41,488 nucleotides of DNA from Phycisphaerales bacterium (lineage in GTDB: Bacteria; Planctomycetota; Phycisphaerae; Phycisphaerales; UBA1924): NCBI GenBank assembly GCA_027083355.1, contig JALWOY010000197.1, positions 1-41,488 on the forward strand, read 5' to 3'. The notes under the pieces are model-generated. The model saw only the letters and a list, made by a program, of their open reading frames with translations. It was not told where the DNA came from and did no database searches. The translations under genes and the position numbers were made by a program. Below are positions 2,445 to 20,625 of this stretch, in pieces (the stretch's first letter is position 1; each line of letters begins with the position of its first letter).

Positions 2445-2681
2445 ATCAGAGCATCTTGTATGTGCCGGACGCCGACGCTGAGCCCGCGAAGCGTCGGATC
2501 GCGCCGGGGCGGTGCCTTTGCAAACCGCCCGGACCTCGGCCCCGCGCTCACGCTTGGGGCTCATTTCTTCACCCGGATCGACAGGTGCCGCGGGAACGCG
2601 CACGATATCCCGACGCATTCAGCCGACCGGCACCGGCAACGGGCCGCCCGCAGCAGACCGGCAGCGGCTCACGGTTCTGAA
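2424..2681. repeat. 22-bp direct repeat flanking a 214-bp intergenic insert
   Basis: Bases 2424-2445 and 2660-2681 are identical at 21 of 22 positions (core TCACGGTTCTGAA). The first copy carries the lptD stop codon; the second carries the mqnE stop codon on the other strand. The DNA between them (2446-2659) has no gene but includes the hairpin at 2468-2501. The layout looks like an insertion with target duplication, inferred from the repeats alone. Confidence 0.7.
2468..2501. repeat. Interspersed palindromic repeat, copy A
   Basis: A perfect 8-bp stem (CCGACGCT at 2472-2479, AGCGTCGG at 2490-2497) encloses a 10-nt loop. The 34-bp unit matches 14181-14214 at 30 of 34 positions. Both copies are intergenic, downstream of plus-strand genes. 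No run of T follows on either strand, so it is not a typical terminator. Confidence 0.6.
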
Positions 2682-4036
2682 CGCACCCGCCAGCGGTTCC
2701 CGTCGCGTTCCACACGCCGATACAGCGTGTCGCGCTCGACGGGTTCATAGCCCGCCTCGCGGATCGCCCGACGCAGCACCGGGACGGTGACCTCCTGGTG
2801 GGTGTCGCTCCCGCCGACCTTGGTGATGTCGTACCAGACCACGGTGCCGTCGATGTCGTCGGCGCCGGCGTCGAGCATGATCTGGGCCATCGGCAGCGTC
2901 TGCATGATCCAGAACGCCTTGACGTGCGGGAAGTTGTCCAGCATCAGCCGGGCGATGGCGATCGTGCGCATATTTTCCAGCCCCGAAGGCCCCGGCAAGT
3001 GCTCCAGCTCGGACCCGTCCGGGATGAACGGCAGCGGGGTGATGGTCTGGAAATAGCCGGAATGAGTTGAGGACGTCGACGCGTCGGATTGCTTCGGGGG
3101 CTCCGGAATCCGGCCGTTCGTCCTCGGGCTCACCGTCGGCGTCTGCGGTGTTCCCGGTCGCGTCAGCGTGATGACAGGGGCGTCGATCCCGGCGATCGCC
3201 GTGATCCCTTCCGTTTCTTCCCCCGCCTCTTGCCCCGCATAGCCCAACCTCGCCAGGGCCTGGTCCTGTGCCCTTCTGAGGATCTCCATATGCACGAGCC
3301 GTTCGCGGCGGTTGTCGACATGCCCATAGAGAATAGTCGAGTTGGTGTTCAGCCCCAGTTCGTGCGCAACCATGTGGACATCGAGCCACTCGTCGGAGCG
3401 AATCTTGCCCTTGTGCGTCTCGTCGTGCACGCGGTCGTCGAAGACCTCCGCCCCGCCGCCGGGCAGCGAACCGAGGCCCGCTTCCTTCAGCTCGGTCAGG
3501 ATGAGCCGGATGCTCTCGCGGCGGTTGTCTCGCTTGTACTTCTTCGCGATCTTGGCGAGGTGCACGATCTCGACAGCGGTGAACGCCTTGACGTGCAGAT
3601 CGGTGCCGTGCTCGGCGGCAACGCGCTTGATGGTGCGGATGAGGTCGGTGTAATAGTCGAACGGGAGGTATGGCTGGAGCCCGCCGACGACGTGGATCTC
3701 GGTGGCGCCGGATTCGCAGGCCTTTCGGGCCTCGTCGGCGATCGAATCCATGTCGTGGGTGTAGGCCCCGTCGTCGCCCTTCTTGCGGTAGAACTCGCAG
3801 AACTTGCACGACAGGGCGCAGATGTTCGAGTAGTTGAGGTGCCGGTTGATGTTGTAGTACGCGACGCCGGGGTGGAGGCGGTTGCGGACGATTCCGGCCA
3901 GCTCGAAGACCCCCCAGAGATCGGGCGTCTCGTAGAGCAGCATGCCGTCGTCGATGGAGAGCCGCTCGCCGGCGAGGACTTTCTCGCGGATGGCGTCGAG
4001 GCGGGCGTCGGCACGGGGAGGGGCGCAAGTGGGCAT
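2669..4036 (-). CDS. mqnE: Aminofutalosine synthase MqnE (radical SAM, menaquinone futalosine pathway)
   Basis: 455 aa from the ATG at 4036; the frame extends upstream to a GTG at 4159, but homology to the family begins just after the ATG. The radical SAM cluster is CALSCKFC (C73, C77, C80). The C-terminal region (VGGSDTHQEVTVPVLRRAIR, VERDTLYRRV) is characteristic of MqnE rather than MqnC. MqnE joins SAM-derived adenosyl to 3-[(1-carboxyvinyl)oxy]benzoate to give aminofutalosine, an early cytoplasmic step of menaquinone synthesis. A Pro/Thr/Ser-rich stretch at about residues 260-326 interrupts the barrel where relatives run directly from the HM(E)xLR helix into GxFQTxxPL. No other mqn gene is in the window. 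The stop codon lies inside the second copy of the 22-bp direct repeat. Confidence 0.88.
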   Translation of the reverse strand: MPTCAPPRADARLDAIREKVLAGERLSIDDGMLLYETPDLWGVFELAGIVRNRLHPGVAYYNINRHLNYSNICALSCKFCEFYRKKGDDGAYTHDMDSIADEARKACESGATEIHVVGGLQPYLPFDYYTDLIRTIKRVAAEHGTDLHVKAFTAVEIVHLAKIAKKYKRDNRRESIRLILTELKEAGLGSLPGGGAEVFDDRVHDETHKGKIRSDEWLDVHMVAHELGLNTNSTILYGHVDNRRERLVHMEILRRAQDQALARLGYAGQEAGEETEGITAIAGIDAPVITLTRPGTPQTPTVSPRTNGRIPEPPKQSDASTSSTHSGYFQTITPLPFIPDGSELEHLPGPSGLENMRTIAIARLMLDNFPHVKAFWIMQTLPMAQIMLDAGADDIDGTVVWYDITKVGGSDTHQEVTVPVLRRAIREAGYEPVERDTLYRRVERDGNRWRVRSEP

Positions 4037-4219
4037 GGGGGAGTGTATCGGTGCAGCACGGGCACGGGGGGCCGAAGCCCGGTCGGTCAGACACCCCGGC
4101 CGCCCCGCTTCTATCCCGGAATTCTCCCCCTGAAGAGGCCCGAGCGGAAGCGAGGTCACCCGGCGAAACGGCCCCCTGGGTTGTTTCTGCTTCCCTCTCG
4201 CCCCTCTTGCAGCAAGTCA

Positions 4220-4244
4220 AGACAGGCGGGATGCCGGTCCCACC
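4220..4244. repeat. Degenerate GACAGGCGGGA palindromic repeat
   Basis: The sequence starts AGACAGGCGGGATGCCGG and ends TCCCACC. It aligns with the three clustered copies at 34615-34715, with one palindrome arm decayed. It lies upstream of mqnE and dnaK, about 100 bp before the dnaK promoter. Confidence 0.55.
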
Positions 4245-4294
4245 CATTCCGGGCTCGACGTGCACGAGGGCCCAGACTGCCAAGTTGACAGCCC

Positions 4295-4341
4295 GGGATT
4301 GATCCCACGCCCGTTATCCCCGGAGAACCGGCCTTCCGGTT
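4295..4341. promoter_or_regulatory. Inverted repeats upstream of the dnaK promoter
   Basis: Two perfect inverted repeats are seen: GGGAT-TG-ATCCC at 4295-4306, and AACCGG-CCTT-CCGGTT at 4326-4341, which abuts the -24 box. They could bind a sigma-54 activator or another regulator; no known operator is recognised. The rest of the 378-bp gap between mqnE and dnaK (4037-4414) holds only the palindromic repeat at 4220. No CIRCE element is present. Confidence 0.35.
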
Positions 4342-4358
4342 TTGGCACGCGCGTTGCA
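4342..4358 (+). promoter_or_regulatory. Sigma-54 (RpoN) -24/-12 promoter of dnaK
   Basis: The sequence TTGGCACG-CGCG-TTGCA matches the sigma-54 consensus YTGGCACG-N4-TTGCW at every defined position, with the exact 4-bp gap. Transcription would begin near 4369, giving a leader of about 46 nt before the ATG at 4415. It is on the correct strand in the gap just before dnaK. Confidence 0.75.
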
Positions 4359-4414
4359 ACGACTTTCCCGCGTCGATCGCCCACAGGCGGTCGCCACAGA
4401 AAGGAAACCCAATC

Positions 4415-6331
<1,917 letters not shown>

Positions 6332-19224: not shown

Positions 19225-20625
19225 TCAGCGGCCACGCGACGACGCGTCGATCCTGACCGGGACGGTACCGGATGAGCCCGGCACAGACTCAGCCCCCCGG
19301 CCGGTCGCGGATTGTTCGTGCACAAAGAAAGGCTCATCCGCCGGCCCCAGCGGGCACAGATCGTCGTACCACGACGCCTTCGGGTCGTATTTCGCGAAAA
19401 ACGGCCGACGCACCAGGTCCGGCTCCCGGGCCTGCAGAAATTCGAGCACGAACACCTGTTCACGCCCGATGTCCGAAACACCGAGGATCAGACACTTGCC
19501 CGGGAAACACGACATGCTCGGCCCACGAACCGTCCGAGCCGTCCCTGGGATCTGCTGGTACGCGTTGCGGAAGATGTTCCAGCAACGGACCAGAGGCATC
19601 TGGAAATACCCCTTCGCCCCCGTGTCCCGCTCGACGAACATGTAGTACGGCACACACCCAAGCTGCGTACCCCGCGTCCACAGATCAACCCATACCCCCG
19701 CGTCGTCGTTCACATGACGGATCACCGGGCTCTGCATCCGGATCACCGCGCCGGCCGAGCGGATCCGGCTCACCGCGTGCCTCGCGATCGGCGTCGAAAG
19801 CTCCACGGCGTGCGAGAAATGCCCCATCAACGCGAGGTGCTTGCCCGCACCCACCACACGCTCGAACAGACGGAGCAGATCGTCCGCGTCCCGGTCGGTC
19901 ACATACCGCTGCGGCCAGTACGCGATGGATTTCGTCCCGATCCTGATCGTCCGCAGCGATTCGACCGAAAGCAACGGCTCGATATACCGTTCGAGCAGTT
20001 TCGTATTCATCACCATCGGGTCGCCGCCCGTCAGCAGCACGTCCGTCACACGCCTGTTGGCGCGCACATACCCGGCCAACCGATCCGCCTCCCGGCTGGC
20101 GAACTTCAGATCACCCTCCCCGATGAACTGCGCCCAGCGGAAACAGAACGTGCAATACGCGTGGCACGTCTGGCCCTGGCTCGGGAAAAACAGCACCGTC
20201 TCCCGGTACTTGTGCTGCATCCCCCGGACCGGCTCGCCGTCCAGCATCGGTACGTTGTGCGTCATCTGGCCCGCCGGGTGCGGGTTCAGCCGGGCACGGA
20301 TACGCGCGACCTCCGCCTCCAGCACCGCCCGATGTGCCGGGTCGGCCTCGGCACGCCCCATCAGATCGCGCACCCGGGTGTAATCTTCTTCCGCGAGCAT
20401 CCCACGCTGCGGGAATGTCAACTGGAACATCGGATCATCCGGCACCCGATCCCAGTCGATCAAAGATTCACAGACATATTCATTCGTCCTGAAGGGGAGC
20501 ACCAGCGACACCACGCGGACCGCCTCCCGCAGAGACGAATCCAACGCCCCCCACCACGGCATCGACTCCACGTTCGACCTCATGATCGCCCGGTACTTCG
20601 TGATGCTCGTCGCCCTCTGGATCAT
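19225..20625 (-). CDS. KamA-family radical SAM protein, substrate unknown
   Basis: 466 aa from the ATG at 20625, which has AGAAGGAG 6 bp upstream; the frame continues 5' without homology. The radical SAM cluster motif is CHAYCTFC (C154, C158, C161) and is followed by the SAM-binding LLTGGDPMV, both as in lysine 2,3-aminomutase. Unlike true aminomutases there is no PGGGGK motif for the PLP lysine; the corresponding C-terminal region reads GPSMSCFPGKCLILG, so PLP binding is uncertain. KamA enzymes shift an alpha-amino group to the beta carbon using SAM and PLP, but the substrate here cannot be assigned. Downstream, on the same strand, lie korA and korB, possibly a loose operon. Confidence 0.75.
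   Translation of the reverse strand: MIQRATSITKYRAIMRSNVESMPWWGALDSSLREAVRVVSLVLPFRTNEYVCESLIDWDRVPDDPMFQLTFPQRGMLAEEDYTRVRDLMGRAEADPAHRAVLEAEVARIRARLNPHPAGQMTHNVPMLDGEPVRGMQHKYRETVLFFPSQGQTCHAYCTFCFRWAQFIGEGDLKFASREADRLAGYVRANRRVTDVLLTGGDPMVMNTKLLERYIEPLLSVESLRTIRIGTKSIAYWPQRYVTDRDADDLLRLFERVVGAGKHLALMGHFSHAVELSTPIARHAVSRIRSAGAVIRMQSPVIRHVNDDAGVWVDLWTRGTQLGCVPYYMFVERDTGAKGYFQMPLVRCWNIFRNAYQQIPGTARTVRGPSMSCFPGKCLILGVSDIGREQVFVLEFLQAREPDLVRRPFFAKYDPKASWYDDLCPLGPADEPFFVHEQSATGRGAESVPGSSGTVPVRIDASSRGR

Follow-up and report, generated by a model that had tools for sequence, protein, structure and literature searches.

The window, meaning the whole stretch of 41,488 nt that was analysed, carries a dnaK gene, a divergently oriented neighbour and several recognisable elements in the DNA between them. 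These features are:

2669-4159, minus strand: radical SAM protein of the MqnE/MqnC/CofH group, divergent neighbour of dnaK
4277-4291, plus strand: enhancer-like palindrome CTGCCAAGTTGACAG, consensus CTGCCR-N3-YGGCAG, conserved in 39 of 39 dnaK regions
4326-4341, no strand assigned: inverted repeat AACCGG-CCTT-CCGGTT, perfect but not conserved
4343-4358, plus strand: sigma-54 -24/-12 promoter TGGCACG-CGCG-TTGCA (TGGCACGCGCGTTGCA), exact consensus, found in 39 of 39 regions of the order
4367-4371, plus strand: predicted transcription start region, 12 nt past the -12 C at 4357
4400-4406, plus strand: ribosome-binding site AAAGGAA, read from the sequence
4415-6331, plus strand: dnaK, 638 aa, above the cut-off of the DnaK models TIGR02350/NF001413 (PF00012, E 2e-268)

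The radical SAM protein scores just below the MqnE cut-off and has two matching stretches with an extra segment of about 70 residues between them. The promoter test used the consensus TGGCAYR-N4-TTGCW, with its GG and GC dinucleotides and a fixed -24/-12 spacing. TGGCACGCGCGTTGCA matches it at every defined base and the dnaK ATG (4415) lies 57 nt downstream, as the first-pass annotation had read it: an exact consensus on the right strand and in the right place. Judged by where the -12 element lies, the 5' untranslated region of dnaK is predicted to be about 46 nt long. The sigma factor itself is encoded in the same genome (rpoN; PF04552, E 5.7e-59, at G000:C102). How much weight can a single site of this kind bear? 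It is the sole exact match in the window. When up to three mismatches are allowed there are 29 matches, fewer than in shuffled sequence and at chance level, which makes a lone -24/-12 site weak evidence. A one-mismatch site on the minus strand, TGCCACGCGTATTGCA at 20151-20166, has the GG of its -24 box broken and is probably a chance match.

Conservation of the promoter and of the upstream palindrome

The dnaK gene was located in 40 related genomes, ranging from the same genus to the same order, and the upstream DNA was compared. Two genomes were left out (G002, masked; G023, at a contig end), giving 39 evaluable regions with the genome studied here included. All 39 have a -24/-12 box, which lies 27-151 nt upstream of the start codon; 200 dinucleotide shuffles gave 0.32 of 39 on average and never more than 3. 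GGC and TTG are invariant in every sequence and the final C is kept in 38. The site at 4343-4358 is therefore real. Such an alignment of relatives had been put forward in the first-pass annotation as a check on the two boxes, and they are kept throughout. That the resemblance arose by chance in GC-rich DNA has next to no probability: relaxed matches are common in the window, but the idea is refuted by the conservation in 39 of 39 regions against a shuffle mean of 0.3, and by the 51 against 0 matches of the paired pattern described below.

The other conserved element, the palindrome at 4277-4291, had been missed at first pass. Its centre lies 60 bp before the -24 GG in the window. In each of the 39 evaluable dnaK regions of the order the best match agrees with 10-12 of the 12 defined positions, and the G, C and A core positions are nearly invariant. 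Palindrome and -24/-12 box occur as a pair in 28 of these regions and in none of 200 shuffles. The element singled out at first pass was the perfect inverted repeat just upstream of the promoter. The repeat does exist, at 4326-4341, but as a conserved element it fails: AACCGG-N4-CCGGTT is absent at the equivalent place in relatives, even in G001 of the same genus. It was rejected as a regulatory element and probably has no part in the sigma-54 system.

The distance between the palindrome and the -24 GG varies from 59 to 153 bp, with clusters at about 60, 70, 80, 90, 100, 111, 122 and 133 bp. Across the 39 dnaK regions these distances have a period of 10.4 bp (R 0.75), and those before groEL are similarly phased; none of 2000 jittered sets was equally strong for dnaK and one of 2000 for groEL, in tests whose draws are not independent since the relatives share ancestry. 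The varied distances show repeated change by whole helical turns, the behaviour expected of an enhancer that is read through DNA looping. The palindrome is proposed to be the binding site of a sigma-54 activator. The claim of phasing is made within the order only, because it was not seen phylum-wide: the collection sample gave a best period of 8.7 and an R of 0.17 at 10.5 bp.

Are the familiar regulators of dnaK found in these genomes as well? Bacterial heat shock is usually described in terms of RpoH, of repressors (HrcA, HspR, CtsR) or of RNA thermometers. HrcA was found in none of the 41 genomes, by a search in which the control genomes were positive. None of the fetched loci has a CIRCE element (TTAGCACTC-N9-GAGTGCTAA) at up to four mismatches, and the best in the window has six; the first-pass remark that CIRCE is missing holds for the window as it does for every locus fetched. 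No protein in the 41 genomes exceeds the TIGR02392 cut-off for RpoH. Control by HrcA/CIRCE and control by RpoH were both rejected on these counts. The earlier proposal of a sigma-54 promoter for dnaK is strongly supported: the site is conserved in all 39 regions, rpoN is present, HrcA and RpoH are absent, and a phased palindrome lies upstream.

Genes that share the palindrome and promoter

A strict pattern joining palindrome and -24/-12 box was run over the 41 genomes, with the reversed pattern as control, and gave 51 matches against 0. They lie before dnaK (23), groEL (21), hsp20 (4), clpB (1), a receiver-groES-groEL operon (1) and an AAA ATPase gene (1). In the genome studied here, which was searched by pattern and by protein family, the strict matches are those of dnaK and of groEL (G000:C175). 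A weaker pair, CGGCATCCCGCTTGCA and CTGTCAATTTGGCAC (92 bp), precedes the receiver-groES-groEL operon on another contig:

G000:C171 (locus L392), about 576-1160: receiver gene
G000:C171, 1244-1555: groES
G000:C171, 1955-3556: groEL

This is a second groEL operon, whose gene order is the same in 20 of 20 genomes checked and which has a recognisable pair in 13. Its receiver protein has diverged: Pfam Response_reg matches only under the cut-off, the acidic pair near the N terminus has been lost, and a W-P motif (e.g. HYRNRWP) is conserved at the C terminus. The AAA_15 ATPase gene, in G022, is the only non-chaperone target of the pair in the order. A perfect palindrome with its -24/-12 box stands before it at L053 (G022:C1:120045-120147) and at L265, which are apparently one and the same contig, the length being 121919 in both cases.

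Could sigma-54 nevertheless be an accessory route to dnaK transcription? Most of it might come from a vegetative or group-2 sigma-70 promoter that escaped recognition, with sigma-54 adding induction under another condition. DnaK is needed at a basal level in most bacteria, and distant sigma-70 relatives of RpoH do exist in genomes of the order (about 155 bits against the 323-bit cut-off). No sigma-70-like promoter was found in 4036-4420; the consensus scanned was that of E. coli and may miss a basal promoter. Yet near the start it is the -24/-12 box that stays invariant in all 39 genomes, and the targeting of chaperones at large speaks against a side role. We consider a main sigma-70 promoter unlikely and prefer the reading in which dnaK depends on sigma-54.

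How far does the pair extend beyond the order? In Planctomycetota it was matched in 112 of 392 genomes, against 4 for the control. The genes downstream, at the phylum loci sampled, are mostly groEL, dnaK, groES, grpE, hsp20, clpB and clpC, with a single-domain receiver gene appearing repeatedly. The pattern is strict, and several genomes that have the activator described below gave no exact match. Among 84,980 named species scanned, at least 118 loci were found, most of them titled Planctomycetota, Phycisphaerae, Pirellulales or similar; of the listed loci with enough DNA, 88 of 110 have a heat-shock/chaperone or receiver gene within 700 nt. The control of dnaK by RpoN, which the first-pass annotation had called unusual, is supported by these data, but it is not peculiar to dnaK here, being general for the chaperone genes of the phylum. 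Among the matches listed, a few outside Planctomycetota also have the pair upstream of dnaK, hsp20-clpB or groESL: L249, L260, L267 and L321 in Gemmatimonadota, L270 in Calditrichota and L284 in Bacteroidales. No chaperone gene lies near L297 or near several matches in proteobacteria, which may be due to chance.

A candidate activator

Which protein would read the palindrome? The genome encodes five proteins with a strong Sigma54_activat domain, one of which stands out:

G000:C165:15971-17392: candidate activator, 474 aa, receiver + AAA+ (Sigma54_activat) + Fis HTH by Pfam architecture

An orthologue of this protein (C165 hereafter) is present in 40 of the 41 genomes of the order, in one of them as a fragment. 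Two genomes, G030 and G038, both 97% complete, have exactly one Sigma54_activat (PF00158) protein, the C165 orthologue, and in both of them dnaK as well as groEL keeps the palindrome and promoter pair. Sigma-54 promoters depend on an activator, so these genomes offer the best evidence for its identity, and the C165 protein is the most likely activator of the dnaK promoter. The other four candidates were rejected: C152, the second-best, whose full orthologue is absent in G012, G025, G030, G036 and G038; C39, which sits in an apparent flagellar locus; C157, which resembles RtcR-type activators; and C182, since the C165 orthologue is the sole Sigma54_activat protein of G030 and of G038.

In a maximum-likelihood tree the C165 members of the order and the phylum form one clade of 58 rows (support 100/99), apart from the paralogues. 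The recognition helix GERTLYRK hardly varies across the phylum, and the loop that contacts sigma-54 reads GA[FY]TGA. Among 56 signature-bearing members the GAFTGA loop and the Walker A and B motifs are conserved, and the phospho-acceptor Asp is present in 54. The C165 protein belongs to no named equivalog (AtoC, NtrC, ZraR, GlrR, NtrX), all of which score under their curated cut-offs, the best at 379 against 714 bits. In Phycisphaerales the gene is often found beside ruvC. Outside the order a short histidine kinase (about 250-290 aa) is usually encoded directly ahead of it (L349, L350, L357-L361, L365, L370-L373 and others); in two of these kinases Pfam matched HisKA and HATPase_c and no sensor domain. 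Autoregulation of the activator was rejected, as no palindrome and promoter pair lies near the C165-type gene.

The link between the C165 protein and the palindrome rests on co-occurrence and conservation. Might the promoter and the palindrome both be real, with the palindrome bound by some other enhancer-binding protein or by a repressor? In G023 (91% complete) no C165 orthologue was detected and groEL has a near-consensus palindrome, CTGCCAAGCTGTCAG; that palindrome also led us to reject G023 as a natural loss of activator and site together. In two Gemmatimonadota genomes that carry the palindrome, the best-matching activators have recognition helices that differ from GERTLYRK. Against this stand G030 and G038, which have no further PF00158 protein to serve a promoter that needs one; the phasing over 59-153 bp, which fits a looping activator and not a simple repressor; and the recognition helix, nearly invariant in the phylum as the site is in the order. 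Another regulator at the palindrome is accordingly improbable in our judgement, and the C165 protein remains the preferred candidate.

The proposed scheme and its relation to known systems

Taken together, the data suggest that RNA polymerase with sigma-54 transcribes dnaK from 4343-4358 and that a dedicated enhancer-binding protein on the palindrome at 4277-4291 would switch the gene on. The same combination of site and promoter would control groEL, hsp20, clpB and the receiver-groES-groEL operon. Once phosphorylated, the activator is envisaged to bind the palindrome, loop the DNA, contact the sigma-54 polymerase through GA[FY]TGA and open the promoter. Protein-folding stress is the probable signal for its phosphorylation. 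Free chaperone might keep the kinase, which lacks a recognised sensor domain, switched off; the receiver transcribed with groES and groEL might drain phosphate or bind the activator, giving feedback.

We regard it as likely, and hold with good confidence, that these genes form a sigma-54 chaperone (heat-shock) regulon, run by a C165-type activator on the palindrome. In Phycisphaerales, and across the wider Planctomycetota, this regulon would stand in for RpoH and HrcA/CIRCE. Planctomycetes would then probably run their core heat-shock response by an activator-driven sigma-54 system and not by a heat-shock sigma factor or HrcA. The computed basis consists of the conserved promoter, the phased palindrome, the near-pure set of chaperone targets, the absence of HrcA and RpoH, and the profile and tree of the activator. 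A bolder version, offered tentatively and with more doubt than belief, sees an ancient sigma-54 two-component heat-shock system as master regulator of the cytoplasmic chaperones in Planctomycetota. It would have an enhancer code of its own, a kinase with no recognised sensor domain and feedback by the co-regulated receiver; it may have replaced RpoH and HrcA and may reach parts of Gemmatimonadota, Calditrichota and Bacteroidota.

If the regulon is as proposed, it would be a further scheme of heat-shock control, in which dnaK and groEL depend phylum-wide on sigma-54 and an ATP-driven enhancer-binding protein. Sigma-54 promoters are essentially inactive without their activator, so the basal supply of chaperones would need a constitutively active signal. 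The scheme also provides targets for tests: the 15-bp site, the activator gene and the kinase encoded next to it in most of the lineages sampled beyond the order. In Rhodopirellula baltica, heat shock induces ClpB, GroEL, DnaJ, GrpE, Hsp20 and DnaK, and the levels of rpoN and rpoH are unchanged (PMC2754498), which fits a signal carried by an activator and not by the level of a sigma factor. How planctomycetes such as R. baltica achieve this induction becomes a testable matter.

What had been anticipated? Part of the promoter class was. A promoter-matrix survey published in PLoS One in 2025 reports for Planctomycetota and Bacteroidota that sigma-54 promoters are enriched at the genes for GroEL, Hsp20, GroES, GrpE, DnaJ and DnaK, mainly in Planctomycetia and less in Phycisphaerae (PMC12316311). 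That weaker signal in Phycisphaerae differs from the 39 of 39 Phycisphaerales dnaK regions with a site in the present analysis. A text search of the survey found no upstream activating or enhancer site, and no activator named for the chaperone promoters. The additions made here, as far as could be checked, are the activator and the enhancer code with its phasing, together with the receiver-groES-groEL operon and the finding that the site is universal in Phycisphaerales. Studholme and Dixon (2004), whom the survey cites, reportedly dealt with Pirellula activators and could hold earlier predictions. The Desulfovibrio sigma-54 regulome was considered as a precedent, and its text contains no dnaK, Hsp20 or ClpB.

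The proposed scheme shares its target genes, dnaK and groEL, with HrcA/CIRCE. That system represses, whereas activation is proposed here, where HrcA is absent from 41 of 41 genomes and no CIRCE-like site was found in the fetched loci. With the RpoH (sigma-32) regulon it shares positive control of the same set of chaperones; the promoters, however, are of the -35/-10 type for RpoH and of the -24/-12 type here, where no RpoH scores above the cut-off in 41 genomes. The C165 group resembles the enhancer-binding proteins of the NtrC/AtoC type in combining receiver, Sigma54_activat and Fis HTH, and AtoC and NtrC are its best NCBIfam matches, both far below the cut-off. It differs from them in forming an orthologue group of its own, with a distinct recognition helix, putative chaperone targets and, usually, a short partner kinase. 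Sigma-54 has been tied to chaperone and heat-shock genes elsewhere: groESL3 of Bradyrhizobium is under NifA and sigma-54, and rpoH and ibpB of E. coli have sigma-54 promoters. Those are isolated genes for which sigma-54 is an extra input, whereas in the planctomycetes it would serve the whole chaperone set of a phylum.
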